A DNA stretch of 64,000 bases from Streptomyces griseoviridis. Its GTDB lineage: Bacteria; Actinomycetota; Actinomycetes; Streptomycetales; Streptomycetaceae. Positions 4,040 through 29,954 of this stretch are shown here, in pieces (position 1 is the stretch's first letter; the number at the start of each line of letters is the position of its first letter). The notes below the pieces were generated by a model, which was given only the letters and a program-made list of their open reading frames with translations, searched no databases and was not told the DNA's origin. Position numbers and translations under genes: made by a program. Location: assembly GCF_005222485.1 (NCBI RefSeq), contig NZ_CP029078.1, positions 2,322,001 to 2,386,000 of the forward strand, in the 5' to 3' direction.

Positions 4040-4062
4040 ACCCTACTGGCGAGGGCTGACAG
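4040..4062 (-). promoter_or_regulatory. RecA-NDp/PafBC-type promoter of uvrC
   Basis: Read on the minus strand: CTGTCAGCCC, 7 bp, TAGGGT. The first bases of the two boxes are 17 bp apart, as at uvrA, uvrB, terD and ogt in this window. The -10 box matches the TAGGGT form, while the GTGG part of the upstream box has drifted to GCCC. The uvrC ATG follows after 7 nt, so transcription should start at or next to the start codon. In mycobacteria such promoters are activated by PafBC with the housekeeping sigma factor; transfer to this organism is inferred. Confidence 0.7.
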
Positions 4063-4073
4063 AGCGCGGGGCC

Positions 4074-4126
4074 TGTGGACAACCATGGACGGCCCGGGGC
4101 GGACGGGGCGCGGGGCCTGTGGACAA
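4074..4126 (-). promoter_or_regulatory. Two DnaA-box 9-mers upstream of uvrC
   Basis: TGTGGACAA, the complement of TTGTCCACA (the preferred Streptomyces DnaA box), occurs at 4074-4082 and 4118-4126. Each sits in a longer direct repeat (GCGCGGGGCCTGTGGACAAC). They lie 12-64 bp upstream of the uvrC -35 box. They may be a duplicated DnaA-binding or titration site, or just a small repeat; occupancy is not shown. Confidence 0.4.
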
Positions 4127-4138
4127 CCCCCGACACTC

Positions 4139-4816
4139 CTAGCGTGACTCCAGGAAGGTGAGGACGGCCAGCACCCGGCGGTGGTCGTCGGTGTCCTCCG
4201 GGAGGTGGAGTTTGCCCAGGATGCTGCGGACGTGTTTCTCGACGGTGCCCTCGGTGACCCACAGTCTGCGGCCGATGCCGGCGTTGGAGCGGCCCTCCGC
4301 CATCAGGGCGAGGACCTCGCGCTCGCGGGCGCTGAGGTGGCCGAGCGGGTCGTCGCGGCGGCGGGCCGAGAACAGCTCCCGCACCAGGGACGGGTCGACG
4401 ACCGGTCCGCCCCCGCGCACCCGTTCGAGCGCGTCGAGGAACTCCTCGACGACGGTGACCCGGCTCTTGAGCAGATAGCCGACCTGGCGCCCGCTCGCCA
4501 GCAGCTCGAGCGCCTCCTCGACCTCGACGAACGCCGACAGGACGAGGATGCCGGTGTCGGGGTGGCGCTCCCTGATGGCGCGGGCCGCCCTGAGCCCCTC
4601 GGTGGCGTGGTGGGGCGGCATCCTGATGTCGACGATCGCCAGGTCGGGGCGCTCGGCCGCGACCAGCTCCAGCAGGCCGACGGCGTCCCCCGCCTGCCCG
4701 GCGACCTCGTACCCGACGCGCGCGCAGAGGCTCGCCAGCCCCTCCCTGAGCAGCACGTCGTCGTCGGCGAGGACGACTCTTCCCCGCGCGGACCGCCGCG
4801 ATGCGTCCTCGACCAT
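4139..4816 (-). CDS. NarL/LuxR-family response regulator
   Basis: 225 residues. Receiver domain at about 12-130 with acidic pocket ADDD (17-20), predicted phospho-acceptor Asp63 (LAIVDIRMPP), switch Ser (LVLSAF) and conserved Lys (YLLKSRV). The LuxR-type HTH is at about 155-215 (LSAREREVLALMAEGRSNAGIGRRL...GTVEKHVRSIL). It should be a DNA-binding activator phosphorylated by the histidine kinase encoded just upstream on the same strand. The gap to the kinase is 400 bp, so it probably has its own promoter. A 16-bp near-palindrome at 4883-4898, also present upstream of the receiver gene at 8311, is a candidate binding site. The start has a purine-rich AGGGGGAG upstream. Signal and targets are unknown. 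Confidence 0.93.
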   Translation of the reverse strand: MVEDASRRSARGRVVLADDDVLLREGLASLCARVGYEVAGQAGDAVGLLELVAAERPDLAIVDIRMPPHHATEGLRAARAIRERHPDTGILVLSAFVEVEEALELLASGRQVGYLLKSRVTVVEEFLDALERVRGGGPVVDPSLVRELFSARRRDDPLGHLSAREREVLALMAEGRSNAGIGRRLWVTEGTVEKHVRSILGKLHLPEDTDDHRRVLAVLTFLESR

Positions 4817-5219
4817 GGCCCCGGCTCCCCCTGCCCGACCGATGCGGTGCGTACCCGCCGACAGCCTGCCGCACCGGCGCGGTTCCGGCTAGCAGGAAGC
4901 AGGATTGGGTGCCTGCCAGGACGACGTGGGCGCGCGGGCGGGGAATCCTCGAAGCAGGCCGACGGAACGGAGGCCGACGACAGGCGCCGCACCGCACCGG
5001 TGGTGCGGCCGATGCCGACCCGGCCGGCTCGGGCGAGAGCCGGCGGGTCGTGGGGCGAAGGCCGCGGAATGCGCGGCGGACGCGGGCCGGGGTACCGACG
5101 GCGGTCGGCCCGCGCCCGCCGGATCACGCGCCCGCCCCTGCCCGCCCGGACGTACGCGCACGGAGTTCATCACGGCTCCCCCGTGCCTGACGGCTCCCCT
5201 CCCGCGTACGTCCGGGCGG
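4817..5219. other. Non-coding spacer between regulator and kinase genes
   Basis: About 400 bp with no convincing gene; the open frames here lack ribosome sites and domain character. It holds the regulator's leader (AGGGGGAG close to its ATG) and the palindrome described separately. No terminator-like hairpin with a T-run follows the kinase stop codon. Confidence 0.6.
4883..4898. promoter_or_regulatory. 16-bp near-palindrome upstream of response regulator
   Basis: TTCCGGCTAGCAGGAA, with 7 of 8 symmetric base pairs, 67 bp upstream of the regulator's start codon. An almost identical element (TTCCGGCTAGCCGGGA) lies at 8261-8276 in the kinase/receiver divergent promoter. Recurrence of the same dyad upstream of two of the three genes of one signalling locus suggests an operator for the LuxR-type regulator; this is inference. 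Confidence 0.5.
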
Positions 5220-8105
5220 TCATCCGTGCGGCGGCGGCCCGTCCAGGGGCGCCCTGATCCGCAGGACGGTGCCCTCCCCCGGCGGGCTGTGCAGGTCGAG
5301 CCTGCCGCCGATGGCCTCGACCCGGTCGACCAGCCCGATCAGACCTGAGCCCCGGCCGGGCTCGGCGCCGCCCCCGCCGTCGTCGCGGACGGTCAGCTCC
5401 ATGACGCCGTCGCGCGCGTGGGCGTCGACGGTCACCACGCGCGCGTGCGCGTGTTTGACGGCGTTGGTGAGGCACTCGGAGACGACGTAGTAGGCGGCCA
5501 CCTCGACCCGCTCGGGGAGCCGCCGCGCGGGCAGCCGCAGATCCAGCTCGACGGGCACGGCGCACCGTCGGGCCAGCGAGCGCAGCGCGGGGCCGAGACC
5601 ACCCTTCGAAAGAATCGCCGGATGGATGCCGCGGGCCACCTGGAGGAGGTCGTGGGAGGCGTCCTCCAGCCCCTTGCCGACGTGCGCGAGCTGCCGGCCC
5701 AGCTCGGACGAGGCGTCGGTGACCAGGGACTCGGCGAGACGCAGGTCCAGTTGCAGGGCGACGAGCCGCTGCTGGACGCCGTCGTGCAGGTCCCGCTCGA
5801 TCCGCCGCCGGGAGTCGTCCCCCGCGGCGACCACCCGCGCGCGGGAGGCACTCAGCTGGGCGCGGCTGTCGGCGTTGGCGATGGCGGCGGCGATCAACTC
5901 GGTGAAGTCGGCCAGCCGGGAGGCGGCGGGGACGGCGGAGGCAGCGAAGGCTTCTGGTTCTGCGGCTGGTTCCTGTCGTGCGTCAGCCACCACCACGCCC
6001 CACAGCCGTCCGTCGACGACGATCGGCGCACCCACCGAGCGCCCCACCCGCGCGGGCGCCCGCGTGCGGATCACCTCGCGGGCCGCCGCCTCGCCCTCGC
6101 GCCCGGTGCCGTGCGCGGTGCCGAGAACCGTCAACGCGCCGTCGGACTCGTGCCGCAGCACCGCCGCGACCTCGGCACCCAGCAGCTCCTCCACCTCCCT
6201 GGCCACGGCCCCGAACACCCGTTCAGGCGGTTCACCGCGGGCCACCCGGGTGGCGACCCGGCGCAGCGCGGACTGCTCGCGCGCGGCGCGGCGCCGCTCG
6301 GTGACATCGCGCGCGACGGCGTACACGAGGCCCTCCTCGGGAACCGGGCGGGCGCTCCACTGGAGCCAGCACTCGGTGCCGTCCGGGCGCAGGAAGCGGT
6401 TCTCGAACTCGACCGGTTCGGAGCCGCCCGCCAGCCGTTCCATGGCGGCGCGGGTGGTCTCCCGGTCCTCCGCGTGCACCAGGTCGAGGGGGGGCCGGGC
6501 GAGCAGCGTGTCGCGCGGGTGGCCGAGGGTGCGTTCGAACGCTGGGTTGACGCGTCGGAAGGTGCCGTCGACGCCGAGGATGCACAGCAGGTCGAGGGAG
6601 AGGTGGAAGATGTCCTCCAGTTCCCGTTCGGCCTTGCGGCGCCTGCCCTGGGCCGCGGCGAACGACGCCATGGTGGCGTTCATGCCGCCGAGGAGCTGCG
6701 CCCAGGTGCCGTCGAACCCGGTGACGTCCACCCGGTGTTCGAGCCGGTTGTCGTCGACCGCGGAGTTCATGGAACGGATCTCGGCGGCCAACCGTTCTGT
6801 CATCAGCCGCAGTTCGCGGAAGGTGTCCGCGACGTCGCCGAGTTCGTCGTGGCCCGCGTAGCGGATGGCGAAGGAGAGGTCGCCCGCGGACAGGGCACGG
6901 GCTCCCGCGGTGACCTCCTGGAGCGGGCGGGTGATCGAGCGGCCGAGGGCGAGAGCGAGGAGGGCGACAGCGGTGAGGACGGCGAGGGAGACGGTGAGGT
7001 CGCGTGCGGCCCGCGTCCGCGCGTCGGCCAGATCGGCGGCGGCCGTGTCGGCGAGGTCGCGCGCGGCGCGGGCCTGGACAGCGCGCAGCGCGTCGATACG
7101 GGCCGTGGAGTCGGCGAGCCAGCCGCCGTACGAGGGCCATCGGGCCGTCGGCGGTTCCGGGTCGGCGAGCAGAGCGCGGACCGCCCGTACGGCACGGCCC
7201 GACCTCGCGAACTGCGCCTGGTAGAGGGCGGCCCGCAGCCGGTCGGAGGCGATCTGCCGGAACTCCCGCAGATGCGCCTCCTCCAGGGCGGACCAGCGGC
7301 CGGCGGCGGGGCGGTGTCCGGTGGGGGTGTCGAGCAGGACGGCCAGTTCGACGCGTTCGCGTTCGGCGGCCTCGACGGCCTCCAGGATCGCGAGGTGGGC
7401 GTCGGCGGCCCGGCCCGCGGCCCTGGTGGGACGGCCGGTCTCCAGGTCGGCGGCGGTGTCGAGAAGGGTGTCCTCGATGTCCTGGTACCGCTGGGCGATC
7501 GCCCGCGCGCTGAGCGCCCCGAGACCGGCCCGCACCCGCACGGCGCTCAACCGGCGGCTGACGGCGTCGAGTTCTTCGGCGGTCCGGTCCTCGGGCCGTG
7601 AGCCGGGCGGGGAGTCGGGCCGGGAGCCGGGCGCGGCCCGGCGCCGGGAGTCGGCCTGTTCGACGGCGTCGTCCAGGGCGCGGTCGGTGGCCCGCCGGGA
7701 GGCGGACCGCTCCGCGAGGGTCGCCGTGTCGGGGCGCAGCCGGGCCCGGACGGCGTCGATGCGTTCCCTCGCGACGGCGTCGGAGACCTCGGTGGTCGCG
7801 AAGGACACGTCGATCGCGGAGTGGAACCGTTCGAGGGTCCGTGCCTCGTCCCACTGGGCGAGGGCGCTGAAGGCGGTGAAGGCCAGCAGCCCGGCGACCG
7901 GCAGCAACGCGAGCAGCATCAGCTTGTGGCCGACCCGGAGCCGGGAGAGAAGGGGACCACGGCGCCGTCCCGACGGACCCCCGGTCCGCGGCCGTCCGGA
8001 GCAGCCCCCGGCTCGCGGCCGTCCCGAGGAGCCCCCGGTCCGCGGCCGTTTCTGCGGACCTCCGCCCTGCCGCCGCCCTCTCGTCCTGCCGAACGGCGCC
8101 CTCAT
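5220..8105 (-). CDS. Membrane histidine kinase (sensor-HAMP-PAS-GAF-HisKA_3-HATPase)
   Basis: 961 residues from the ATG at 8105; upstream in-frame starts add only arginine-rich sequence. Order: basic Gly/Arg/Ser/Pro tail (about 1-55), TM helix (about 60-85), long helical extracytoplasmic region of about 260 residues resembling the nitrate/nitrite-sensing (NIT) class, second TM (LTVSLAVLTAVALLALALG), HAMP, PAS (FHLSLDLLCILGVDGTFRRVNPAF), a GAF-like segment, HisKA_3 with phospho-His in RRIERDLHDGVQQRLVAL, and a HATPase domain ending in DDGGGG and GSGLIGLVDRVEAIGG. This is a typical NarX-type kinase for a LuxR-class regulator, most likely the one encoded at 4139-4816. The ligand cannot be read from the sequence, and the NIT assignment is tentative. 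Confidence 0.92.
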   Translation of the reverse strand: MRAPFGRTRGRRQGGGPQKRPRTGGSSGRPRAGGCSGRPRTGGPSGRRRGPLLSRLRVGHKLMLLALLPVAGLLAFTAFSALAQWDEARTLERFHSAIDVSFATTEVSDAVARERIDAVRARLRPDTATLAERSASRRATDRALDDAVEQADSRRRAAPGSRPDSPPGSRPEDRTAEELDAVSRRLSAVRVRAGLGALSARAIAQRYQDIEDTLLDTAADLETGRPTRAAGRAADAHLAILEAVEAAERERVELAVLLDTPTGHRPAAGRWSALEEAHLREFRQIASDRLRAALYQAQFARSGRAVRAVRALLADPEPPTARWPSYGGWLADSTARIDALRAVQARAARDLADTAAADLADARTRAARDLTVSLAVLTAVALLALALGRSITRPLQEVTAGARALSAGDLSFAIRYAGHDELGDVADTFRELRLMTERLAAEIRSMNSAVDDNRLEHRVDVTGFDGTWAQLLGGMNATMASFAAAQGRRRKAERELEDIFHLSLDLLCILGVDGTFRRVNPAFERTLGHPRDTLLARPPLDLVHAEDRETTRAAMERLAGGSEPVEFENRFLRPDGTECWLQWSARPVPEEGLVYAVARDVTERRRAAREQSALRRVATRVARGEPPERVFGAVAREVEELLGAEVAAVLRHESDGALTVLGTAHGTGREGEAAAREVIRTRAPARVGRSVGAPIVVDGRLWGVVVADARQEPAAEPEAFAASAVPAASRLADFTELIAAAIANADSRAQLSASRARVVAAGDDSRRRIERDLHDGVQQRLVALQLDLRLAESLVTDASSELGRQLAHVGKGLEDASHDLLQVARGIHPAILSKGGLGPALRSLARRCAVPVELDLRLPARRLPERVEVAAYYVVSECLTNAVKHAHARVVTVDAHARDGVMELTVRDDGGGGAEPGRGSGLIGLVDRVEAIGGRLDLHSPPGEGTVLRIRAPLDGPPPHG

Positions 8106-8260
8106 GGCGTACCCCCACTCGACCGGGTGACGCGGCCTCCCCCGGGGCTCCCTGATGCTACCGGCGGTGACCCGCCGCCGCGCCGCGGCGACGTGAACTC
8201 CCGATTTCGGCACAGGACTTCAGCACATTCCAGCTACCGGGTACCGGACGCCGTCCCTTT

Positions 8261-8276
8261 TTCCGGCTAGCCGGGA
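8261..8276. promoter_or_regulatory. Second copy of the 16-bp palindrome (divergent promoter)
   Basis: TTCCGGCTAGCCGGGA, 7 of 8 symmetric pairs, sharing 14 of 16 bases with the dyad at 4883. It lies 35 bp upstream of the receiver gene's ATG and about 155 bp upstream of the kinase start, in the 205-bp divergent spacer. Candidate operator of the local response regulator. Confidence 0.5.
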
Positions 8277-8310
8277 GGCGCAATCAACGGGCGGTGGGCA
8301 CGCTGTGCGC

Positions 8311-8685
8311 ATGACCATGCGCTGTCTTCTCGTCGATGACAGCATCCGGTTCCTCGACGCGGCGCGGACGCTGCTGGAGCGCGACGGGACAGCCGTCGTC
8401 GGCATGGCCTCGACAGGTGCGCAGGCGCTGGCGCACGCCGCGGCGCTCGCTCCGGACGTCGTCCTGGTCGACCTGGACCTCGCCGACGAGAGCGGTCTGG
8501 ACCTCGCGGTCGCTCTCACCCGCACCGTCCCCTGCGCCGTCATCCTGATCTCCACGCACCGCTTCGAGGACGTCCAGGAGTTGGTGGCGGCCAGTCCGGC
8601 CCGCGGCTTCCTGCACAAGGCGGAGCTGTCCGGGCGGGCGATCCGGGAGGTCCTGGGCCGCGAGGGAGCGGCGGACGCGACCTGA
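8311..8685 (+). CDS. Stand-alone receiver-domain protein
   Basis: 124 residues from ATG 8311; GTG 8305 and ATG 8317 are also possible and no strong ribosome site decides. One CheY-like domain: acidic pair VDD (9-10), phospho-acceptor Asp54 (VVLVDLDLADESGLDL), switch Ser (ILISTH) and conserved Lys (GFLHKAEL). No output domain follows; the protein ends 15-20 residues after the last helix. It is divergent from the histidine kinase, so it may be a second phosphate acceptor, a sink, or a protein-interaction switch in the same pathway. Receiver-only proteins of this kind are common in Streptomyces. Partnership is inferred from position and the shared palindrome. Confidence 0.88.
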   Translation: MTMRCLLVDDSIRFLDAARTLLERDGTAVVGMASTGAQALAHAAALAPDVVLVDLDLADESGLDLAVALTRTVPCAVILISTHRFEDVQELVAASPARGFLHKAELSGRAIREVLGREGAADAT

Positions 8686-8894
8686 GCGCGGCGGGCACCT
8701 CTGGCCAGGAGTACGCCGCTGTTGGGCGTCAGGTGTTGTCGGGACTAGGTCAACACGCTTCAATGCGGGGGAACTCGGGGCGCTGAACGAGGGCGTACGG
8801 ATGTGAAGGCGCCCCGGCGGCACCGGGGTCGCCCCGGCGCCGGCGCGGAACCGGTCTGACCAGCCGTAGCGAGCTTCCAGAGAAAGGCCCCCGC

Positions 8895-9851
8895 ATGCCG
8901 CACGCCACACAGCACGCTGACGTCGCCGCCGCCACCACCGCGGAACTGGACGCGGCCCTGCGGAGCGGCCCGTTCCATGTGGCGCTGCGTGCCGCGATCG
9001 CCGCCCGCGGGCTGCCGTTGCAGCGGGTGCAGCACCATCTGTCGCGGCGCGGGGTCAAGGTCGGTGTGACGAGCCTGAGTTACTGGCAGCAGGGGGCCCG
9101 CAGGCCGCAGCGTCCGGAGTCGCTCAGGGCCGTCCGCGCCCTGGAGGAGATCCTCCAGCTCCCCGAGGAGTCTTTGATCAGGCTGCTCGCCGAGAACGAC
9201 GCGCACGCCTGCGCGCAACGCCCCGCCGCCCGTTCGTACCGTTCCTTCGTGGAGGCGTCCGGGGTCCTGGAACGGCTGCTGGCCGAGCTGAGCCTGCCGC
9301 CCGACGGCGGGCTGCACACCCTGGGCCACCACGAACGGGTCCGGATCGGCGCCCGCCGTGAGCTGGCCGGCCGCGAGTCCCATCACATCGTGCGCGCCCA
9401 CCGGGACGGCGTCGACCGCTTCGTCGCCGTCCACCACGGCGACCCGGAGTGCGCGCCGGAGCGGATGCGGCTGCACGCGCTGGACAACTGCCGCACCGGA
9501 CGGACCCGGGTGCATCACGACACGGGTGTCCTGGTCGCGGAGCTTCTCTTCGACACCCGGCTGCGGGCCGGTGACACCTTCCTGTTCCGGTACGGCGTCG
9601 AGGACGGCACGGCCGGTGAGTCGCGCGAGTACGTGCGGGGTTTCGGGCCCGTGGGCGGGCAGTACGCGCTCCAGGTGAGTTTCGACGGGCGGGCCCTGCC
9701 GACCCGCTGCCACCGCTTCACCCAGCATTCGGCGGCGGCGCCGCGCGGCGGCCGGCTTGAGCTGCCGATCAGCGCCCGCCACCACTCGGTCCACCTGGTG
9801 GAACCGCGGGTGCGGACCGGGGTCCTGGGGATCGGCTGGGACTGGGAGTAG
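8895..9851 (+). CDS. Conserved Streptomyces protein with Xre-like N-terminal HTH
   Basis: 318 residues. A ribosome site (AGAGAAAGG) precedes the ATG. Residues about 25-100 (LRAAIAARGLPLQRVQHHLSRRG...VTSLSYWQQGARRPQRPESLRAVRALEEILQLPEESL) look like a degenerate Xre-type helix-turn-helix. The remaining 200 residues are predicted mostly beta, Arg/His-rich, with no catalytic motif I recognise; they could be a sensor or oligomerisation domain. No signal peptide or TM segment. It is a single-gene unit between the two-component locus and a sugar kinase. Probably a DNA-binding regulator, but I do not recognise the full-length family and give no target. Confidence 0.82.
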   Translation: MPHATQHADVAAATTAELDAALRSGPFHVALRAAIAARGLPLQRVQHHLSRRGVKVGVTSLSYWQQGARRPQRPESLRAVRALEEILQLPEESLIRLLAENDAHACAQRPAARSYRSFVEASGVLERLLAELSLPPDGGLHTLGHHERVRIGARRELAGRESHHIVRAHRDGVDRFVAVHHGDPECAPERMRLHALDNCRTGRTRVHHDTGVLVAELLFDTRLRAGDTFLFRYGVEDGTAGESREYVRGFGPVGGQYALQVSFDGRALPTRCHRFTQHSAAAPRGGRLELPISARHHSVHLVEPRVRTGVLGIGWDWE

Positions 9852-9947
9852 GAATGCCCCCAGCCCGCATATGGTAGGAAGATCGGCGCCCAGGCGGTGC
9901 GGACGCGCCCCGGGGCGCTCTGCTCAGTTCTCGGAAGGAACCGTCTC

Positions 9948-10859
9948 GTGATCGTCGTCGCCGGTGAAGCTCTGATCGACCTGGTGCCGCAGGGCACGGG
10001 CGCCCTCGCGGCGCTGACCCCGGCGCGCGGCGGCGGCCCGTACAACACGGCTGTGGCGCTCGGCAGGCTCGGTTCCTCCACCGCCTTCTGCTCCCGCACC
10101 TCGCGGGACGCCTTCGGTGAGGCGCTGCTCGACGGGCTGCGCTCCGCGGGCGTCGACGTCTCGGCCGTGCAGCGCGGCACGGAGCCGACGACGCTGGCGG
10201 TCGCCACGCTCGACGCGGGCGGCTCGGCCGCCTACACGTTCTACGTCGAGGGCACCGCCGACCGGCTGTTCTCGGCGGCCGAGGCGCTGCCCGCGGGGAC
10301 GCGCGCGGTGTCCTTCGGCACCTGTTCCCTCGTTCTCGAACCGGGCGCGACCGCCTATGAGCGGCTGCTGCGGACCGCCGCGGGGCAGGGCGTGTTCACC
10401 GCCCTCGACCCGAACATCCGGGCCGGGCTGATCCCCGACGCCGATGCCTACCGGGCCCGGTTCACGAGCTGGCTGCCCTCGGTGTCGCTGCTGAAGCTCT
10501 CCGAGGAGGACGCCGGGTGGCTGGGCGGCTCTCCTCGCGAGTGGCTGGCCGCGGGCCCCTCGGCCGTCGTGATCACGCGGGGCGGTGACGGGCTGACCGC
10601 GTACACGCGGGACGGCGCGGAGTACTCCGTGCCGGGCGAGAAGGTCGACGTCGTGGACACGATCGGGGCGGGCGACACCGTGAACGCGGCGCTGCTGCAC
10701 GGCCTCGCCGCCACCGACGCGCTCTCCCCGGAGGGGGTGGCGGCGCTGGGGGCTCGGGGTTGGGACCGGCTGCTGGGGTTCGCGGCTCGTGCGGCTGCGA
10801 TCACCTGCTCCCGGGCGGGCGCGGAGCCGCCGTTCGCCTCCGAGGTGGGCGAGGTGTAG
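9948..10859 (+). CDS. PfkB-family carbohydrate kinase (fructokinase-like)
   Basis: 303 residues from GTG 9948, chosen because GGAAGGA sits 9 nt upstream and MIVVAGEALIDLVP is the canonical PfkB N-terminus; the longer frame only adds unrelated residues. Substrate-side motif RGGGPYNTAVALGRLG (about 25-40) and the catalytic signature DTIGAGDTVNAALLHG with its Asp base (about 240-255) are both intact. It should phosphorylate a sugar such as fructose at the expense of ATP in the cytoplasm. No sugar transporter is adjacent, so the substrate is open. Two strong hairpins separate it from convergent uvrA. Confidence 0.93.
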   Translation: MIVVAGEALIDLVPQGTGALAALTPARGGGPYNTAVALGRLGSSTAFCSRTSRDAFGEALLDGLRSAGVDVSAVQRGTEPTTLAVATLDAGGSAAYTFYVEGTADRLFSAAEALPAGTRAVSFGTCSLVLEPGATAYERLLRTAAGQGVFTALDPNIRAGLIPDADAYRARFTSWLPSVSLLKLSEEDAGWLGGSPREWLAAGPSAVVITRGGDGLTAYTRDGAEYSVPGEKVDVVDTIGAGDTVNAALLHGLAATDALSPEGVAALGARGWDRLLGFAARAAAITCSRAGAEPPFASEVGEV

Positions 10860-10878
10860 GCAGGCCCTCGGTGGTGGC

Positions 10879-10972
10879 GGGGTCGCGGTCGGCGGAGAAT
10901 CGCGACCCCAGCCGAGAGCCCGAGCCCGACAGGAATCGCGAGCCCGGCCGGAAACACGGTCCCGGCCGGGCT
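10879..10972. terminator. Two hairpins between convergent pfkB-type kinase and uvrA
   Basis: First stem: GGGGTCGCG (10879-10887) pairs with CGCGACCCC (10901-10909). Second stem: AGCCCGGCCGG (10941-10951) pairs with CCGGCCGGGCT (10962-10972), 11 perfect pairs with a 10-nt loop. There is no T-run, as is usual for Streptomyces terminators. Position between two convergent genes supports bidirectional termination. Confidence 0.65.
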
Positions 10973-10989
10973 GGAATCCGCTCGGTCGC

Positions 10990-13900
10990 TCAGTCCTTGC
11001 GGGCCCGCGAGGCGGTCGTCTTCTTTGCCGCGGCCGCCTTCTTGGCGCCGGTCGCCTTGGTCGCGGCGGCCGTCCCCTTCGTGGCGGCGGCCGTCTTCGC
11101 CACCGTCTTCTTCACGGCGGCCTTCTTCGCCGTAGTGCGGCGCGGGGCCTTCGACGGGGACGCGTCGCTGATCCGGTCGACGTCGAGGATGTCGCGCAGG
11201 AACTTGCCGGTGTGGCTGGCCGGCACCCCGGCGACCTCCTCCGGCGTGCCCTCGGCGACCACGAGTCCGCCGCCCGCGCCGCCTTCGGGGCCCATGTCGA
11301 CGACCCAGTCCGCGGTCTTGATCACGTCGAGGTTGTGCTCGATGACGATGACCGTGTTGCCCTTGTCGACCAGGCCCGACAGGACCGTCAGCAGCTTGCT
11401 GATGTCCTCGAAGTGCAGACCGGTGGTCGGCTCGTCCAGGACGTAGACGGTGCTGCCGGTGGAGCGGCGCTGCAACTCGCTCGCGAGCTTGACGCGCTGT
11501 GCCTCACCGCCGGACAGGGTGGTCGCGGACTGGCCGAGTCGGACATAGCCGAGGCCGACGTCGTTGAGGGTGCCGAGGTGACGGGAGATCGCGGGGACGG
11601 CCTCGAAGAACGAGCACGCCTCCTCGATCGGCATGTTCAGGACGTCGGCGATGGACTTGCCCTTGTAGTGGACCTCCAGGGTCTCCCGGTTGTACCGGGC
11701 GCCGTGGCAGACCTCGCACGGGACGTACACGTCCGGGAGGAAGTTCATCTCGATCTTGATCGTGCCGTCGCCCGCGCAGTTCTCGCAGCGGCCGCCCTTG
11801 ACGTTGAAGGAGAAGCGGCCGGGCATGTAGCCGCGGACCTTCGCCTCGGTGGTCTCGGCGAACAGCTTGCGGATGTGGTCGAAGACACCGGTGTAGGTGG
11901 CCGGGTTCGAGCGCGGGGTGCGGCCGATGGGCGACTGGTCGACGTGCACGACCTTGTCGACGAGGTCGTCGCCCGCCACGCGCGTGTGCCGCCCGGGGAC
12001 GCTCCTCGCGCCGTTCAGCTCGCGCGCGAGGTGGGTGTACAGGATGTCGTTGACCAGCGTCGACTTGCCCGAACCCGAGACGCCCGTGACGGCCGTGAAG
12101 ACACCGAGCGGGAAGGAGACGTCGATGTCCTGGAGGTTGTTCTCGCGGGCGCCGTGCACGGTGAGCCTGCGGGACGGGTCCTGCGGGCGGCGGACGTCGG
12201 GCAGCGGGATCGCCTTCTTGCCCGCCAGGTAGAGGCCGGTCTGCGACCGCGGGTTGTCGAGCAGCTCCTTGTAGGAGCCGCTGTGCACGACCTTGCCGCC
12301 GTGCTCACCGGCGCCGGGGCCGATGTCGACGATCCAGTCGGCGACCTTGATGGTGTCCTCGTCGTGCTCGACGACGATGAGCGTGTTGCCCATGTCACGC
12401 AGCCGGACCAGGGTCTCGATCAGCCGGTGGTTGTCCCGCTGGTGCAGGCCGATGGACGGCTCGTCGAGGACGTAGAGCACGCCGACGAGTCCGGAGCCGA
12501 TCTGAGTGGCCAGCCGGATGCGCTGGGCCTCGCCGCCGGAGAGGCTGCCGGCGGCGCGGTTGAGCGAGAGGTAGTCGAGGCCGACGTCGACGAGGAACCG
12601 CAGCCGTTCGTTGACCTCCTTGAGGACCCGCTCGGCGATCTTCTTGTCGCGGGCGTTGAGCTTCAGCTCGCCCAGGAAGTCGGCGCAGTCGCTGATGGAC
12701 ATGCCGGAGACCTCGGCGATCGACTTCCCCATGACCGTGACGGCGAGGACGATCGGCTTGAGGCGGGTGCCCTCGCAGGTGGGGCAGGGCACCTCGCGCA
12801 TGTAGCCCTCGAAGCGCTCCCGGCTGGCGTCGCTCTCGGCCTCGCTGTGCCGGCGCTTCACGAACGGGACGGCGCCCTCGAAGGGTGTCGTGTACACGCG
12901 CTCGCGGCCGTACCGGTTGCGGTAGCGGACCTCGATCTGGGTCTTGTGCCCGTACAGGAGGGCCTTCTTGGCGCGCTGCGGCAGCCCCGCGAAGGGGATG
13001 TCGGTGCGGAAGCCCAGCGCGTCCGCGAGGGCGCCGACCAGCCGGCCGAAGTAGTCCTTGGTGTGGCCGTGCGACCAGGGGTGGATGGCGCCCTCGTCGA
13101 GGGACTTGTCCTCGTCCGGGACGATCAGCTCCGGGTCGACCTCCATGCGGGTGCCGATGCCGGAGCAGTCGGGACAGGCACCGAAGGGGGAGTTGAAGGA
13201 GAAGGAGCGCGGCTCGAGCTCCTCGAAGGACAGGTCGTCGTACGGGCAGTACAGGTGCTCCGAGTACATGCGCTCGCGCTCGGGGTCGTCCTCGGGGAGG
13301 TCGACGAAGTCGAGCACGACCATGCCGCCGGAGAGGCCGAGGGCGGTCTCCACGGAGTCGGTGAGGCGGCGCTTGGCGGAGTCCTTCACCGTGAGGCGGT
13401 CGATGACCACCTCGATGGTGTGCTTCTCCTGCTTCTTCAGTGTGGGCGGCTCGGAGAGCTGGACGGTCGCACCGTCCACGCGCGCGCGGCTGTAGCCCTT
13501 GGTCTGGAGGTCGGCGAAGAGGTCGACGAACTCGCCCTTGCGCTCGCGCACCAGCGGGGACAGCACCTGGAACCGGCTGCCCTCGGGCAGCTCGAGCACC
13601 CGGTCGACGATGGCCTGCGGCGACTGGCGGGAGATCGGCCGGCCGCACTCGGGGCAGTGCGGCTTGCCGATGCGCGCGAACAGCAGCCGGAGGTAGTCGT
13701 AGACCTCGGTGATGGTGCCGACCGTCGAGCGCGGGTTGCGCGAGGTCGACTTCTGGTCGATGGACACCGCGGGCGACAGACCTTCGATGAAGTCGACGTC
13801 CGGCTTGTCCATCTGGCCGAGGAACTGCCGGGCGTACGAGGAGAGCGACTCCACGTAGCGGCGCTGGCCCTCGGCGAAGATGGTGTCGAAGGCGAGGGAG

Positions 13901-14016
13901 GACTTGCCCGAACCGGACAGGCCCGTGAAGACGATGAGCGAGTCCCTGGGCAGGTCGAGCGAGACGTTCTTCAGGTTGTGCTCGCGCGCGCCACGGACGA
14001 TGAGACGGTCGGCCAC
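10990..14016 (-). CDS. uvrA: Excinuclease ABC subunit A (UvrA) with lysine/alanine-rich tail
   Basis: 1008 residues from GTG 14016 ([20 protein letters not shown]); GTG 14028 is in frame but sits directly on the AAGAAAGG ribosome site, which fits 14016 better. DNA-damage recognition ATPase of nucleotide excision repair, loading UvrB. Both ATPase modules are complete: Walker [13 protein letters not shown] (about 30) and [13 protein letters not shown] (about 650), signatures [12 protein letters not shown] and [12 protein letters not shown], and Zn modules including CENCAGDG...CEVCHG. The last about 55 residues are Lys/Ala/Thr-rich like a histone H1 tail, an extension I recall in other Streptomyces UvrAs that may add non-specific DNA affinity. 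A damage-type promoter lies 58 bp upstream. Confidence 0.97.
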
Positions 14017-14048
14017 GCCGGTCCGCACCTTTCTTGAGAGAAGTGACA

Positions 14049-14062
14049 GGGGCCAAAGCCCC
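14049..14062 (-). other. Small hairpin in the uvrA leader
   Basis: GGGGC-CAAA-GCCCC stem-loop inside the 5' leader between the uvrA -10 box and its ribosome site. It leaves the AAGAAAGG site free, so any regulatory effect is speculative; it could stabilise the transcript. Confidence 0.35.
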
Positions 14063-14073: not shown

Positions 14074-14096
14074 AGACTAGGGGGAGCCACTGACAA
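14074..14096 (-). promoter_or_regulatory. RecA-NDp/PafBC-type promoter of uvrA
   Basis: Minus strand: TTGTCAGTGG, 7 bp (CTCCCCC), TAGTCT, with 17 bp between box starts. The upstream box is a perfect match to the mycobacterial RecA-NDp consensus TTGTCAGTGG. It is the best copy in the window. Unlike the uvrB, uvrC and ogt promoters it leaves a leader of about 50 nt with a ribosome site. Confidence 0.8.
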
Positions 14097-14241
14097 CGCC
14101 GGTCGGATTCCTGGTTGCCTTAACAATCCCCGGCCCTCCAGCATGCCCGACGCCGCCACCGACCTTATAGCACGTGCATTCGATTTAAGGCCGGGCTTCA
14201 TCACCTTCACCCGAAGGTGTGGCGCAGCTAATGTCAGCAGC

Positions 14242-14931
14242 ATGATTGATCACGCTCATGACCTGGCGTCTGTACGGGACGCGACCGACCGGCTGCTCAG
14301 CGCTGCCGCCGCACTGGACAACGCTTCGGCGGCCGAGGCGTCACGGCTGCCTGGCTGGAGCCGCGGTCACGTCCTCGCCCACCTCGCCCGCAACGCCGAC
14401 GCACTCGTGAACGTCCTCGAAGGCCGCCCCATGTACCCGTCGGCGGCGGCCAGGGACGCCGACATCGAGCGGGACGCCCCGCGCCCCCTGGACGTCCAGC
14501 TCGCCGATCTGCGGGCGACGGCCGACCGCTTCCAGGCGGCGGGGGCGGCGCCCGCGGACTGGTCGCGCACGGTGGAGCTGCGCAACGGCGTCACCGACGC
14601 GGCGGCCAGGGTGCCGTTCCGGCGCTGGATCGAGGTGGAGCTGCACCACGTGGACCTCGGCATCGGGTACGAGCTGGAGGAGCTGCCCGAGGCGTTCACG
14701 GAGCGGGAGATCGCCTTCCTCGCCGACCGCTTCGCCGGTCACCCCGAGGTGCCGTCGACCCGTCTGACGGACTCCACGCGCGCGTGGAGCACCGGAAGCG
14801 CCGCCCAGGGAGCCCCGGCGCTCACCGTCACGGGCCCGGCGCCCGACCTGCTCGGCTGGCTCGCGGGACGCCGTGACGGCGCGGCCCTGACCGTCACGGG
14901 TGGCCCGCTGCCCGCGCTGCCCCCGCTCTGA
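14242..14931 (+). CDS. Maleylpyruvate isomerase-family mycothiol-dependent enzyme (DinB fold)
   Basis: 229 residues from ATG 14242 (MIDHAHDLASVRDATDRLL). N-terminal DinB-like four-helix bundle (about 1-150) with family motifs LPGWSRGHVLAHLARNADAL (metal-binding His in HxLAR) and RWIEVELHHVDLGIGY (second His pair), then a small C-terminal domain ending in TVTGPAPDLLGWLAGRRDGAAL. The family includes mycothiol-dependent maleylpyruvate isomerase and S-transferases of actinobacteria; the three-His metal site appears intact. It sits directly before an MBL-fold hydrolase, a pairing that suggests joint handling of a mycothiol conjugate. The actual substrate is unknown. Confidence 0.9.
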   Translation: MIDHAHDLASVRDATDRLLSAAAALDNASAAEASRLPGWSRGHVLAHLARNADALVNVLEGRPMYPSAAARDADIERDAPRPLDVQLADLRATADRFQAAGAAPADWSRTVELRNGVTDAAARVPFRRWIEVELHHVDLGIGYELEELPEAFTEREIAFLADRFAGHPEVPSTRLTDSTRAWSTGSAAQGAPALTVTGPAPDLLGWLAGRRDGAALTVTGGPLPALPPL

Positions 14932-21572: not shown

Positions 21573-21693
21573 GCAGCGATCGTCGCAGAGCGGTCGGGGC
21601 GCCGCATGTCCTGCGGCGGGGTGGAGCACCGGGAGCGGTGCCCGGCCGATGCCGTGCGCCGCTCCCGGCGGTGGTGTCCGCGTGTCACGGTTG

Positions 21694-22695: not shown

Positions 22696-22741
22696 TGCGC
22701 CTCCGGCAGTACGTAACGGCAAATGTCAGCGTCGTCGCTGC

Positions 22742-22838: not shown

Positions 22839-22846
22839 TACGGAAA

Positions 22847-22876
22847 ACAGTACCCCAATCACCAAGGATTGGTAAA
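22847..22876 (-). promoter_or_regulatory. Promoter of the terC riboswitch transcript
   Basis: Minus strand: TTTACC (22876-22871), 18-bp spacer, TACTGT (22852-22847), in an unusually AT-rich patch for this genome. The predicted start site falls at about 22840, right at the 5' strand of riboswitch P1, which is the expected distance for a leader aptamer. Confidence 0.5.
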
Positions 22877-22921
22877 GCGATTGGCAAAGAAACCATCAAA
22901 TCCGCAGGTCAGGACTCTTTA

Positions 22922-24859: not shown

Positions 24860-24922
24860 CGCCTTCAGTCCCCCCGTGTCGCCCGGTGATGTCGTGTCGT
24901 GCGCCGCCCCGCCCGGCGTCTC

Positions 24923-25501
24923 CTACAGGTGCGGCAGGATCGTCGGCATCAGGTCCTGGAAGGTGCGGCCGTTGGCCGGGGAGCCGAGCGCGGTCAGCGT
25001 CCAGCCCGCGCCCGCGCGGTGCACCTTCGCCATGATCTGGGCCGTGTAGGCGCCGCCGCCGGCCAGCGTGTAGCGGGCCAGTTCCTGGCCGTTGGTCTCG
25101 TCGACCAGACGGCAGAACGCGTTCTGCACCTCCTGGAAGGTCTGACCGGTGAAGGAGTTGACGGTGAAGACGATCTGGTCGATGTGGACCGGCACCCGAG
25201 ACAGGTCGACGAGGATCGACTCGTCGTCGCTGCCCTGACCGACACCGCCGACGAGGTTGTCGCCGGTGTGACGCACCGAGCCGTCGTCGCTCACCAGGTG
25301 GCGGAAGAACACCACGTCGACCGGCTGCTTGTCGGCGAACAGGACGGCGGAGGCGTCGAGGTCGATCTCGCGTGTGCGCGAGCCGAACAGACCGCGCCGC
25401 GGAGCCGCCTGCCAGCCGAGACCCATGCGTACCGCGGTCAGGCTGCCCCCGTCGCTCTTCTCCAGACTGATGGCCTGACCCTTGGTCATGTTGACGGTCA
25501 C
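24923..25501 (-). CDS. terD: TerD-family calcium-binding stress protein
   Basis: 192 residues from GTG 25501 (AGGGGAA upstream). Canonical single TerD domain: KGQAISLEKSDGG, GLGWQ, DLDASAVLF, the calcium-site segments HTGDNLVGGVGQGSDDESILVDLSRVP, FTVNSFTGQTFQEVQNAFCRLVD, and ELARYTLAGG. TerD proteins bind Ca2+ and act in tellurite, oxidative and developmental stress responses; in Streptomyces, TerD levels are reported to affect differentiation. First gene of a two-gene unit with the larger TerD-domain protein. Its upstream region carries a RecA-NDp-type promoter matching those of uvrA, uvrB and ogt, which would put it in the DNA-damage response. It is separated from uvrB by a strong terminator hairpin. 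Confidence 0.96.
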   Translation of the reverse strand: MTVNMTKGQAISLEKSDGGSLTAVRMGLGWQAAPRRGLFGSRTREIDLDASAVLFADKQPVDVVFFRHLVSDDGSVRHTGDNLVGGVGQGSDDESILVDLSRVPVHIDQIVFTVNSFTGQTFQEVQNAFCRLVDETNGQELARYTLAGGGAYTAQIMAKVHRAGAGWTLTALGSPANGRTFQDLMPTILPHL

Positions 25502-25558
25502 GCGCTGATTCCCCTCTCGGACGTTCCCCTGTTGCCGCGGAGTCCGCGGTTGACCAAA

Positions 25559-25581
25559 ACCCTATGCAGGGGCACTGACAG
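25559..25581 (-). promoter_or_regulatory. RecA-NDp/PafBC-type promoter of terD
   Basis: Minus strand: CTGTCAGTGC, 7 bp (CCCTGCA), TAGGGT; 17 bp between box starts, identical spacing to the repair-gene promoters. The -10 is the ideal TAGGGT. The leader is about 50 nt with a ribosome site. This is the only non-repair gene in the window with a strong copy. Confidence 0.7.
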
Positions 25582-25631
25582 TGCCGTACCCCCGTCCACG
25601 CTTTGTGTCGGTCTTGCAACACAGCGCGGGA

Positions 25632-25657
25632 ACGGCGGGGGCAGGGGCCCCCGCCGT
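25632..25657 (-). terminator. Hairpin terminator after uvrB
   Basis: ACGGCGGGGGC (25632-25642) pairs perfectly with GCCCCCGCCGT (25647-25657), 11 pairs with a 4-nt loop, 14 bp beyond the uvrB stop codon and upstream of the terD promoter. No T-run. Confidence 0.75.
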
Positions 25658-25671
25658 CACAGAAGGGGACG

Positions 25672-27807
25672 TCAGGCGAGTCCCGCCTCCTTCATCTGGC
25701 GGAGTTCCTTCTTCATCTCGGAGACCTCGTCGCGCAGCCGGGCCGCGACCTCGAACTGGAGGTCGCCAGCGGCGGCCCGCATCCGCTCGGTCATCTCCTC
25801 GATCTGGTCCGCGAGGTCGGCCGCGGGGCGGTCGGTGGGGACCGTCTCCTTGGCCTTGCCCTTGCCCTTGGCGGACTTGGCCGCCTTGGCGCCGAGGGCG
25901 GGCACCGGCGTCTTGGCTCCCTTGCCGTCCTTGGCCTTGCGGTAGCCGGAGCCGAGCAGCTGCTCGGTGTCGACGTCCTCGCGGGCGATCTGCGCCACGA
26001 TGTCGTTGATCTTCTTGCGCAGCGGCTGCGGGTCGATGCCGCGTTCCTTGTTGTAGGCGACCTGCTTCTCGCGGCGCCGGTTGGTCTCGTCGATGGCCCG
26101 CTCCATCGCCGGGGTGATCTTGTCGGCGTACATGTGGACCTGACCGGAGACGTTGCGCGCGGCGCGGCCGATGGTCTGGATCAGCGAGGTGCCGGAGCGC
26201 AGGAAGCCCTCCTTGTCGGCGTCGAGGATCGCCACCAGGGACACCTCGGGCAGGTCGAGGCCCTCACGGAGGAGGTTGATGCCGACCAGGACGTCGAACT
26301 CGCCGGCCCGCAGCTCGCGCAGCAGCTCGATGCGGCGCAGGGTGTCGACGTCGCTGTGCAGGTAGCGGACCTGGATGCCCAGCTCGAGGAAGTAGTCGGT
26401 GAGGTCCTCGGCCATCTTCTTGGTGAGCGTGGTGACCAGGACGCGTTCGTCCTTCTCGGTGCGCTTGCGGATCTCGTGCACCAGGTCGTCGATCTGGCCC
26501 TCGGTGGGCTTGACGACGACCTCGGGGTCGATGAGGCCGGTGGGGCGGATGATCTGCTCCACCACGCCGTCACCGCGCGACAGCTCGTACTTGCCGGGGG
26601 TGGCCGACAGGTAGACGGTCTGGCCGACCCGCCCCTGGAACTCCTCCCACTTCAGCGGGCGGTTGTCGAGCGCGGACGGCAGCCTGAAGCCGTGGTCGAC
26701 GAGGGTCCGCTTGCGGGAGGCGTCGCCCTCGTACATGGCGCCGATCTGCGGGACCGTGTTGTGCGACTCGTCGATGACGAGGAGGAAGTCGTCCGGGAAG
26801 TAGTCCAGGAGGGTGTTGGGCGGGGAGCCGGGCTCACGGCCGTCGAAGTGCATCGAGTAGTTCTCCACGCCGGAGCAGGAGCCGATCTGCCGGAGCATCT
26901 CGATGTCGTAGGTGGTGCGCATCCGCAGGCGCTGGGCCTCCAGGAGCTTGCCCTGCTTCTCCAGCTCGGACAGCCGCTCCCCCAGCTCCTTCTCGATGTC
27001 GTTGACCGCGCGCTCCATGCGCTCGGGGCCCGCGACGTAGTGGGAGGCCGGGAAGACGTACAGGTGTTCGTCGTCGCTGATGATCTCGCCGGTGAGCGGG
27101 TGCAGGGTGGAGAGCGCCTCGATCTCGTCACCGAACATCTCGATGCGGACGGCCAGCTCCTCGTAGACCGGGAAGATCTCGATGGTGTCGCCGCGGACCC
27201 GGAAGGTGCCGCGGGTGAAGGCCACGTCGTTGCGGGTGTACTGGATGTCGACGAAGCGGCGCAGCAGCTGGTCGCGGTCGATCTCGTCACCGACCCGGAG
27301 CGGGACCATGCGGTCCACGTACTCCTGGGGGGTGCCGAGGCCGTAGATGCAGGACACCGAGGCGACCACGACGACGTCACGCCGGGTGAGCAGGGAGTTG
27401 GTCGCGGAGTGGCGCAGCCGCTCCACCTCCTCGTTGATCGAGGAGTCCTTCTCGATGTAGGTGTCCGACTGCGGGACATACGCCTCGGGCTGGTAGTAGT
27501 CGTAGTACGAGACGAAGTATTCGACCGCGTTGTTCGGCAGCAGCTCGCGGAACTCGTTGGCCAGCTGGGCGGCGAGTGTCTTGTTCGGCGCCATGACCAG
27601 GGTGGGGCGCTGGAGCTTCTCGATCATCCACGCGGTGGTCGCGGACTTGCCGGTGCCGGTCGCGCCGAGCAGCACGACGTCCTTCTCGCCGGCTTCGACG
27701 CGCCGGGCTAGCTCTGCGATGGCCTGCGGCTGGTCACCGCTGGGCTGGTAGGGGCTGACGACCTCGAAAGGCGCCACCGTGCGTTCGATCTGGGAAACGG
27801 GCCGCAT
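25672..27807 (-). CDS. uvrB: Excinuclease ABC subunit B (UvrB)
   Basis: 711 residues, normal actinobacterial length. Helicase-like damage-verification subunit of nucleotide excision repair. Walker [17 protein letters not shown] (about 49-64), beta-hairpin region [30 protein letters not shown] (about 100-130), DEAD-like box [21 protein letters not shown], helicase C motifs [31 protein letters not shown] and [12 protein letters not shown], a Lys/Ala-rich insertion (about 625-655) and a C-terminal UVR motif ([21 protein letters not shown]) that contacts UvrC. The ATG comes 6 nt after a TACGGT -10 box and has no Shine-Dalgarno, so a leaderless message is likely. Its promoter fills the 39-bp gap after the MHYT gene. 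Confidence 0.98.
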
Positions 27808-27813
27808 GCAACC

Positions 27814-27836
27814 ACCGTACGACCCACCACTGACAA
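27814..27836 (-). promoter_or_regulatory. RecA-NDp/PafBC-type promoter of uvrB
   Basis: Minus strand: TTGTCAGTGG, 7 bp (TGGGTCG), TACGGT; 17 bp between box starts. The first box is a perfect consensus. Six nt separate the -10 from the ATG. The segment from GTCAGTGG to the -10 is nearly identical to the ogt promoter. Confidence 0.8.
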
Positions 27837-27846
27837 TGCGAGGTGA

Positions 27847-28716
27847 TCAGCGGTTCTGCGGGGTGCGGACGCCGCGTCGGTCCTGGTGGCGGCGGGGGTG
27901 CGGGGGCGAGGGGTGGGCGGTGGCGTGCCGCACGGCGGGGTGCGCGGGGACGCCCGGTTTCTGCTCCACCGGCGCCTGGGCCGGGCCGCCCATGATCATC
28001 ATCGGGTCGAGGACCACGACCACCCCCGCGAGCAGCAGGAACGCAAGCGGGCCGATGAGCATGGGCGCGACGAGTCCGGTGGGCGCGTCGCCCACGACGG
28101 GGGCGCCCGTGGTGTGGACGTGGACGCTGAGGGAGGCCATGCCGGTGTAGTGCATGCCGGTGACGGCGAGGCCCATGACGAGGCTCGCGCCGACGCTCCA
28201 CAGGAAGCCCCTGACCTGCCCGGCCGCCCACAGGGCGGCGGTGGCGGCGGCCATCGCGATGACCACGGAGCAGGCGACGAGCACGGTGTTGTACTCCAGG
28301 GTGCCGTTCAGCTGCATGCCGGCCATGCCCAGGTAGTGCATGGACGCGATGCCGAGGCCGGTGATGGTGCCGCCGGTGAACAGGGCCGTGCCGGTGGCGC
28401 CCCGGTAGCCGACGATGAAGATCCCCACCCCGACCATGACGACGGCGACGCCGAGGCTGGCGAACGTCATCGGCCGGTCGTAGTGGATCGGGGCCTGGTC
28501 GACGCTGAAGCCCATCATGGCGATGAAGTGCATCGTCCATATGCCGGAGCCGATGGCCGCGGAACCGAGGGCGAGCCAGGCGGGCCGCCGGGAGTGCGAG
28601 ACGAGCAGGGACCTGGTGGTGCAGCGCAGGCCCAGGGCTCCGCCCAGGCAGGCCATCAGGTAGGCCACCAGCGGTGTGACGAGTCCGTAGCTGAATCCGT
28701 CGATCGTGCCGTGCAT
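27847..28716 (-). CDS. MHYT-domain membrane signalling protein
   Basis: 289 residues from ATG 28716 (MHGTIDGFSYGLVTPLVAYLMACLGGALGL). Seven predicted TM helices carrying three MHYT-type motifs: WTMHFIAMMGFSV, ASMHYLGMAGMQL and TGMHYTGMASLSV. The paired Met/His residues near the outer membrane face are thought to bind copper or sense O2/CO/NO. The C-terminal cytoplasmic tail is short, Pro/His/Arg-rich and has no GGDEF, EAL or kinase domain, so output would need a partner. Homologous stand-alone MHYT proteins are common in Streptomyces. It lies immediately upstream of uvrB, whose promoter starts 11 bp beyond its stop, with no evidence of a functional link. Confidence 0.93.
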   Translation of the reverse strand: MHGTIDGFSYGLVTPLVAYLMACLGGALGLRCTTRSLLVSHSRRPAWLALGSAAIGSGIWTMHFIAMMGFSVDQAPIHYDRPMTFASLGVAVVMVGVGIFIVGYRGATGTALFTGGTITGLGIASMHYLGMAGMQLNGTLEYNTVLVACSVVIAMAAATAALWAAGQVRGFLWSVGASLVMGLAVTGMHYTGMASLSVHVHTTGAPVVGDAPTGLVAPMLIGPLAFLLLAGVVVVLDPMMIMGGPAQAPVEQKPGVPAHPAVRHATAHPSPPHPRRHQDRRGVRTPQNR

Positions 28717-28995
28717 GCGCGGCTGCCCTTCCCGCCCTCTTGCGTCCCGATTGCCGTGGAGTACACCCCCTCCCAGGACCGCCCGAGCGGTCAGGGTTGT
28801 GGCAGAGAGTATGACCCCCACCGGAACGGTCGAACGACTTTCCGGCAAAGAAACACGGCCTTGCCCCAGTTGTGCGGCACCCGTGAGCGCGCTCGGCCGT
28901 CTCCGTTCGATGTGTGCTCATTCTGCACCCGCCCGCCGTCGACGCTCTGCTGTCACAGTTGAACCGAACGTGATCGCTCGACGCGAGGAGTACGC

Positions 28996-29919
28996 ATGTA
29001 CGTGCGCGTAGTCGCAGCCGCCGCCACGGCGCTCCTGGGGGCCGCCACCCTTCTGCTGCCCAGCTCCGACGCCCGTGCCCGCGACGTCGACGATCCGCCC
29101 CGGATGCCCGCGCCGTCCGCCCCGTCCGCGCCCCCGGTGTCGGCGCCCCAGGTGCTGGCGCACCGCGGTGCCTCCGCCTACGCGCCCGAGAACACCCTCG
29201 CCGCTGTCAGCCGGGCGGCCGGGCTGGGCTCCACATGGGTCGAGAACGACGTCCAGCGCACCAAGGACGGCGAGCTGGTCGTCATCCACGACGACACCCT
29301 GGCCCGGACGACGGACGCGGCACGGGTCTTCCCCGACCGGGCTCCGTGGAAGGTGCGGGACTTCACCGCGGCCGAGATCGCCCGCCTCGACGCGGGGAGC
29401 TGGTTCGGCGCCGCGTTCACGGGCACGCGCGTGCCGACGCTCGCCCGCTACCTGCGCGCGGTGGAGCGCCACCACCAGAACCTGCTCCTGGAGATCAAGA
29501 GCCCCGAGCTGTACCCCGGCGTCGAGCGGCAGATCGTGAAGTCCCTCGGCGACCAGGGCTGGCTCGACGCCCGTCATCTGGAGCACCGTCTCGTGGTGCA
29601 GAGCTTCAGCGTGGACAGCCTGCGGACCGTGCACGAGCTGGAACCCGGGCTCAGGACGGCGTACCTGGGCCGGCCGGCCACGGCGAACCTGCCCGCGTTC
29701 GCGTCCTTCACGGACGGCGTCAACCCGTCCTTCGGTTCGCTCTCGACCGGCTATGTGAACGCCGCGCACGGCTTCACGGGACCGCACGGGCGGCCGCTGG
29801 CGGTGTTCACATGGACGGTGAACGACGCCGACACCGCCCGGAAGGCGGCCGGGCTCGGGGTCGACGGGATCATCACCAACAAGCCCGACGTGATCCGGGC
29901 GGCCCTGCCGGGTTCCTGA
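28996..29919 (+). CDS. Secreted glycerophosphodiester phosphodiesterase
   Basis: 307 residues; GAGGAG 7 nt before the ATG. Signal peptide at about 1-28 (MYVRVVAAAATALLGAATLLLPSSDARA), so the enzyme is exported. GDPD TIM-barrel with catalytic motifs VLAHRGASAYAPENTLAAV (HRG...PENT) and WVENDVQRTKDGELVVIHDDTLARTT (E-x-D and H-D), metal-binding EIKSPELYP, and C-terminal WTVNDADTARKAAGLGVDGIITNKPD. It hydrolyses glycerophosphodiesters to glycerol-3-phosphate and alcohol, probably for phosphate or carbon scavenging. No PHO-box search was possible. It ends 13 bp before the ogt promoter. Confidence 0.95.
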   Translation: MYVRVVAAAATALLGAATLLLPSSDARARDVDDPPRMPAPSAPSAPPVSAPQVLAHRGASAYAPENTLAAVSRAAGLGSTWVENDVQRTKDGELVVIHDDTLARTTDAARVFPDRAPWKVRDFTAAEIARLDAGSWFGAAFTGTRVPTLARYLRAVERHHQNLLLEIKSPELYPGVERQIVKSLGDQGWLDARHLEHRLVVQSFSVDSLRTVHELEPGLRTAYLGRPATANLPAFASFTDGVNPSFGSLSTGYVNAAHGFTGPHGRPLAVFTWTVNDADTARKAAGLGVDGIITNKPDVIRAALPGS

Positions 29920-29931
29920 GCCGCAGGGGCA

Positions 29932-29954
29932 CTGTCAGTGGCGGGTCGTACGGT
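29932..29954 (+). promoter_or_regulatory. RecA-NDp/PafBC-type promoter of ogt
   Basis: CTGTCAGTGG, 7 bp (CGGGTCG), TACGGT; 17 bp between box starts. Six nt separate the -10 from the ogt ATG, predicting a leaderless message. Confidence 0.75.

Follow-up and report, generated by a model that had tools for sequence, protein, structure and literature searches.

The window, a stretch of 64,000 nucleotides from Streptomyces griseoviridis (NZ_CP029078.1, positions 2,322,001 to 2,386,000), encodes uvrA, uvrB and uvrC together with ogt and a terD gene, all assigned by Pfam and each preceded by a short promoter-like element (Table 1). In window coordinates the boxes of these elements start at 4062- (uvrC), 14096- (uvrA), 25581- (terD), 27836- (uvrB) and 29932+ (ogt). 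An initial annotation had placed five promoters of one geometry at these positions, in front of the same five genes; all five elements are present, with 17 bp from box start to box start, and the gene assignments hold. The shared form is TTGTC[A/G]GTG followed by a -10 element, TANNNT, whose first base lies 17 bp on from that of the box, and the uvrC box (TGTCAGCCC) fits it only in part. Upstream of the box, the four tabulated columns are all GC-rich or purine, with no -35-like pattern among those four. A sixth candidate, absent from the initial list, lies at 63061-, in front of an ORF (62384-63031-) that we take, by eye, to be CoaE-like.

Table 1. Predicted promoters, LexA-like elements and associated genes, in window coordinates.
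Feature	Sequence	Position	Strand	Remarks
uvrC		1984..4032	-	Pfam
RecA-NDp-type promoter of uvrC	CTGTCAGCCCTCGCCAGTAGGGT	4040..4062	-	ATG 7 nt past -10
uvrA		10990..14028	-	Pfam
RecA-NDp-type promoter of uvrA	TTGTCAGTGGCTCCCCCTAGTCT	14074..14096	-	GTG 45 nt past -10
LexA-like box	TCGAATGCACGTGCTA	14168..14183	-	overlaps extended -10 (TGCTATA); distal to uvrA RecA-NDp site
terD, TerD-domain gene		24923..25501	-	Pfam
RecA-NDp-type promoter of terD	CTGTCAGTGCCCCTGCATAGGGT	25559..25581	-	patchy in relatives
uvrB		25672..27807	-	Pfam
Candidate LexA half-site in uvrB	TCGAACGCACGGTGGC	27773..27788	-	within first codons
RecA-NDp-type promoter of uvrB	TTGTCAGTGGTGGGTCGTACGGT	27814..27836	-	ATG 6 nt past -10, leaderless by prediction
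RecA-NDp-type promoter of ogt	CTGTCAGTGGCGGGTCGTACGGT	29932..29954	+	ATG 6 nt past -10, leaderless by prediction
ogt, O6-methylguanine-DNA methyltransferase		29961..30515	+	Pfam
Sixth candidate promoter, G-form box	CTGTCGGTGGCAGGCCCTAAGCT	63039..63061	-	ATG 7 nt past -10 of CoaE-like ORF

The initial annotation had proposed a scan of the whole genome, and had named an equal frequency of the motif in random intergenic DNA of equal GC as one result that would speak against a regulon. With at most two mismatches, the pattern TTGTCAGTG-N8-TANNNT occurs five times in the window, compared with a mean of 0.42 in 100 shuffled versions, of which the richest held four matches and none attained five. These five matches are the uvrA, terD, uvrB and ogt sites and the site at 63061-; the uvrC site (CTGTCAGCCC...), the weakest of the original five, falls under this cut. 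Across the genome of 8.96 Mb, the pattern TGTCAG-N10-TANNNT is found at 64 sites, as against 1 for its reversed control. The A-form, TGTCAGTG, accounts for 49 sites in this genome, and the G-form, TGTCGGTG, for 14, compared with none for its control. When any spacer between 4 and 12 was permitted, the pattern search reported 43 matches, each with a spacer of 8. In one relative (L254) the uvrB spacer is shorter by one base.

The 59 sites outside the window were retrieved and their downstream ORFs called by a codon-usage score, with products taken from Pfam and NCBIfam and gene names assigned by us. A downstream ORF was found at 61 of the 64 sites (the exceptions being L055, L057 and L085), and its start lies within 110 nt in 54 of the 61. 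The predicted targets include recA, uvrA, uvrB, uvrC, uvrD/pcrA, an AdnB-like helicase-nuclease and a RecB-like nuclease, along with two proteins of the RecD2 type, a DinG-type helicase, xseA, ligA and rarA. Also among them are ung, ogt, an AlkZ-like protein, a glycosylase of the endonuclease III type and a nuclease of the exonuclease III type, as well as dnaE, dnaX and a DnaQ-type exonuclease. Further ones are rpsF, of which ssb is the usual partner, HU, helicases of the HelY and SNF2 types, and a protein whose match to NapA falls short of the cut-off. By our own classification, made without a formal baseline, 26 of the 61 downstream ORFs are of a DNA repair or replication type, or 21 of 61 in a narrower class, likewise our own, that drops rpsF, HelY, HU, the NapA-like protein and SNF2. 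The remaining ORFs are metabolic (aceE, fumarase, ppgK-like, murB and tyrS), transporters or unknowns, and part of this set probably does not consist of true targets.

Many of the regulon's transcripts are predicted to be leaderless, because the start codon sits where transcription should begin. An ATG lies 6-9 nt past the -10 element at 29 of the 64 sites, a sharp peak compared with about one per offset elsewhere, and the transcripts of uvrB, ogt and uvrC, whose start codons are 6-7 nt past the -10, look leaderless. Among 25 named Actinomycete genomes, 20 show this start-codon geometry at uvrB. The ORF calls predict leaderless transcripts for 33 of 61 genes, which is an upper figure, as recA was counted from a GTG that is possibly not its true start. 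Of the mapped primary start sites of S. coelicolor, 21% are leaderless in the available text of PMC4895711, and setting our prediction against that measurement gives a binomial p of 1.4e-8.

The genome also encodes a candidate regulator. Two WYL proteins encoded side by side give matches to PafB and PafC from the solved Mycobacterium smegmatis complex (E values of 5e-58 and 3e-50, respectively), PafA is encoded in the same 10-kb stretch, and a RecA-NDp site precedes the HelY-type gene just downstream. In mycobacteria, as described in the sections of PMC11804915 at hand, PafBC is activated by binding single-stranded DNA, PafB reads a -26 motif and PafC contacts domain 4 of SigA. Among 25 of 26 named genomes (L103 was left out), the uvrB promoter form is found in all 20 with a PafB match at E <1e-25 and in none of the five others (Fisher 1.9e-5, with kinship ignored); this cut was picked after the values were known, and at 1e-3 the figures become 20 of 23 and 0 of 2. 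The five genomes without the uvrB form are two of Bifidobacterium, with no PafB match, one of Mobiluncus with a trace, and those of Corynebacterium and Rothia with weaker PafB matches; the G-form is rare in these five, with counts of 0, 0, 0, 1 and 1.

The motif recurs across the genus. In 101 genus genomes, that of S. griseoviridis included, 5063 sites were counted compared with 284 for the control (medians of 49 and 2), and all 101 genomes lie above their own control, the lowest ratio being 4.6. A phylum-wide scan for the A-form found a match in 98 of 396 genomes, with 13-57 per genome in 12 genus genomes and 0-5 in 26 others of the class; these low counts are not taken as absence, because the scan misses lineages that use the G-form.

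Conservation of the individual sites varies. The uvrB motif is found at the start codon in 20 of 20 other genus genomes, matching at least 9 of 12 positions, and the ogt site is kept in 20 of 20 relatives at 10 or more of 12. The closest named uvrB is that of S. tendae, at 93% identity. Upstream of uvrC, TAGGGT is positioned 7 nt before the ATG in 30 of 30 Streptomyces loci and TGTC is present in 29 of 30, while the box drifts elsewhere; 24 of 30 loci match at 9 or more of 12 positions, compared with 2 of 1002 background windows, a count that includes one incomplete locus (L187) read at its true start and that stood at 23 of 30 before this correction. The initial annotation had also included terD in the regulon, and there the site is indeed present, but its occurrence is patchy from one species to the next: 13 of 30 loci match at 10 or more of 12 positions (0 of 1019 background windows), and the extended -10 is retained in 26 of 30. 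As for uvrA, 15 relatives had the gene covered (five further ones lacked coverage), and a full match to its RecA-NDp site is found in five and in none of the other ten; by this comparison the uvrA site is lineage-limited.

The initial annotation saw no LexA-type box at these genes and suggested that excision repair may be independent of LexA. This may still hold for uvrB and uvrC, but it is not supported for uvrA, given a conserved LexA-like box together with published LexA binding in S. venezuelae. The LexA-like box TCGAATGCACGTGCTA lies 87 bp upstream of the uvrA RecA-NDp site and fits 8 of 10 positions of the Streptomyces LexA consensus tCGAAC-N4-GNNCGa, as given in the consulted portion of PMC9380542, a score that is common by chance. 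The argument for uvrA rests on conservation, because consensus scores resemble those of nearby DNA: TCGAA.G..CGTGCTATA is common to 16 of 16 aligned upstream sequences, our own included, and 81 of 101 genus genomes each hold a single copy of a slightly longer form, with none in the control. At S. venezuelae uvrA, LexA is described as giving a ChIP peak and as binding in vitro, with an RNA change just below that paper's cut-off (PMC9380542, in the text available). The box falls between uvrA and the divergent gene, within the longest frame of the latter (ORF 14143-14931+), and may serve that gene instead or in addition. For recA, the validated S. venezuelae LexA box TCGAACATCCATTC is present in our genome about 125 bp upstream of the RecA-NDp site. 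Both uvrA and recA thus look to be under dual control by LexA and a PafBC-type activator, and dual control is also stated for their mycobacterial counterparts in the accessible part of PMC8223512. At uvrB and uvrC, no LexA box is established. All 20 relatives carry TCGAAC within the first codons of uvrB, and all 20 sequences read there (our own and 19 others) use the rare GAA codon; this TCGAAC may be a LexA half-site or else reflect early-codon bias.

Taken as a whole, the sequence evidence indicates that the five sites most probably act as RecA-NDp promoters within a PafBC regulon of Streptomyces. The dispersed regulon of PafBC-type promoters foreseen in the initial annotation is borne out by the genome-wide count of 64 sites to 1 and by the presence of both PafB and PafC. 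If mycobacterial work is a guide, single-stranded DNA would activate Streptomyces PafBC, with PafB reading the -26 element and PafC contacting domain 4 of the housekeeping sigma factor, and the ordinary polymerase would thereby start at promoters without a proper -35. Many transcripts of the regulon would be leaderless, and uvrA and recA would each possess a second, distal promoter controlled by LexA. Counting against a PafBC reading are the weaker PafB of Corynebacterium and Rothia, which lack the uvrB site, the shorter uvrB spacer of L254, the sites that precede metabolic genes or no ORF, and an initial search in S. venezuelae, mentioned in the consulted text of PMC9380542, that did not find the mycobacterial motif to be conserved.

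The motif could conceivably be read by some other activator or an alternative sigma factor, rather than by PafBC with the housekeeping sigma factor, and the box might then be a displaced -35. This seems unlikely, as the uvrB form tracks PafB over 25 genomes, the position of the box equals that of the published PafBC -26 motif (PMC11804915, as excerpted), and the bases just upstream of it are GC-rich, without a -35-like pattern in the four columns. It is also very unlikely that the genes are chiefly under LexA as part of the SOS response, with the motif serving as a basal promoter free of damage control. In favour of such control are the published LexA box of recA, the conserved LexA-like box of uvrA, a 9 of 10 consensus match 186 bp upstream of our terD and, at L053, one of the 64 sites, a complete fit to the looser form of the LexA consensus. 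However, each of the 25 perfect LexA palindromes in the genome is at least 2.9 kb from all 64 sites, and the 64 promoters, when scanned with the published consensus, show no excess of LexA-like matches over the DNA around them. Conserved boxes are likewise lacking at uvrC and ogt, where just 2 of 30 uvrC and 2 of 20 ogt sequences have TCGAA[C/T] upstream; upstream of terD it is found in 6 of 20, mostly near -20. That the pattern of five sites arose by chance or was fitted is a fair suspicion on one count, as it was drawn by eye from these very sites, but with no shuffle in 100 attaining five matches, the genome-wide excess and the retention of sites in relatives, there is next to no likelihood of it.

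A wider reading that we consider somewhat more likely than not is that of a genus-wide PafBC damage regulon that takes in a large share of the repair genes and some of the replication machinery, works largely through leaderless transcripts and has LexA as the smaller arm, in which uvrA switches by species between control by LexA only and by LexA plus PafBC. The 2022 LexA study of S. venezuelae stated, in the text seen, that the PafBC motif did not seem to be conserved there, judging by an initial search, and that a RecA/LexA-independent response was still to be shown in Streptomyces (PMC9380542). A motif above control in 101 of 101 genus genomes, with named targets and an encoded regulator, makes the statement on non-conservation testable, and the sites point to genes without annotation whose expression may change upon DNA damage. 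Among the literature matches listed on PafBC or PafB, or on RecA-independent damage control, in the form available, none was found on PafBC function or a PafBC regulon in Streptomyces, and the papers listed as containing the literal string TTGTCAGTG had off-topic titles.

The promoter type itself is already known, in Streptomyces too. Mycobacterial RecA-NDp promoters were reportedly treated by Gamulin in 2004, and a RecA-NDp promoter at Streptomyces recA is said to have been described by Ahel in 2002. Such promoters are in print for Streptomyces recA and for the SCO6735 macrodomain gene (PMC5087735, PMC9411070, as excerpted); these cases share the promoter type and the genus with ours but concern single genes, whereas the present sites form a genome-wide set with a proposed regulator. 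Compared with the Streptomyces LexA/SOS regulon, as set out in the available text of PMC9380542, recA and uvrA are common targets, but that system uses a repressor box instead of an activator element, and its perfect palindromes lie apart from the 64 sites. A close parallel is the mycobacterial PafBC regulon with its RecA-NDp promoters (PMC8223512, PMC11804915 and PMC6789036, in the parts consulted), which has the same form of box and -10 element, PafB and PafC homologues near pafA, targets that include recA and uvrABC, and LexA acting also at recA and uvrA. Two differences stand out: Streptomyces mostly has A at position 6 of the box, where G predominates in the other genera examined at uvrB, and alkA-ogt of M. 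tuberculosis is tied to an SOS box in the text of PMC8151990 at hand, whereas a RecA-NDp site precedes ogt here.

The gene 3' of pafB-pafC, the adjacent pair that encodes the two WYL proteins of the putative regulator, is of the HelY type and carries its own RecA-NDp site (L041; positions 2571-2592 of L178). Because this downstream gene bears such a site, the regulator locus may itself be a target. Among sites elsewhere in the genome, the ORFs downstream of L034, L037, L038, L071, and L075 found no match in Pfam and NCBIfam searches, and are possible uncharacterised members of the damage regulon. Two distinct sites, L088 and L089, each lie ahead of a gene for a DUF4132 protein, and the L061 site precedes a DUF3263 protein whose match to mycobacterial NapA is below the cut-off. 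At the CoaE-like ORF, the start codon follows 7 nt after the -10 element of the candidate site.

Features in the window
Feature	Position	Strand	Remark
Sixth candidate RecA-NDp-type site	63039-63061	-	G-form box (G at position 6); precedes CoaE-like ORF
CoaE-like ORF	62384-63031	-	named by eye
TCGAAC within uvrB start	27773-27788	-	

Codon 8 of uvrB is the rare GAA in all 20 sequences read, which creates TCGAAC within the gene start; this may be a LexA half-site, or else reflect early-codon bias. At position 6 of the uvrB box (loci L098-L129 and L239-L258), A predominates in Streptomyces and G in other genera, a difference that may explain why a search with a mycobacterial motif failed.
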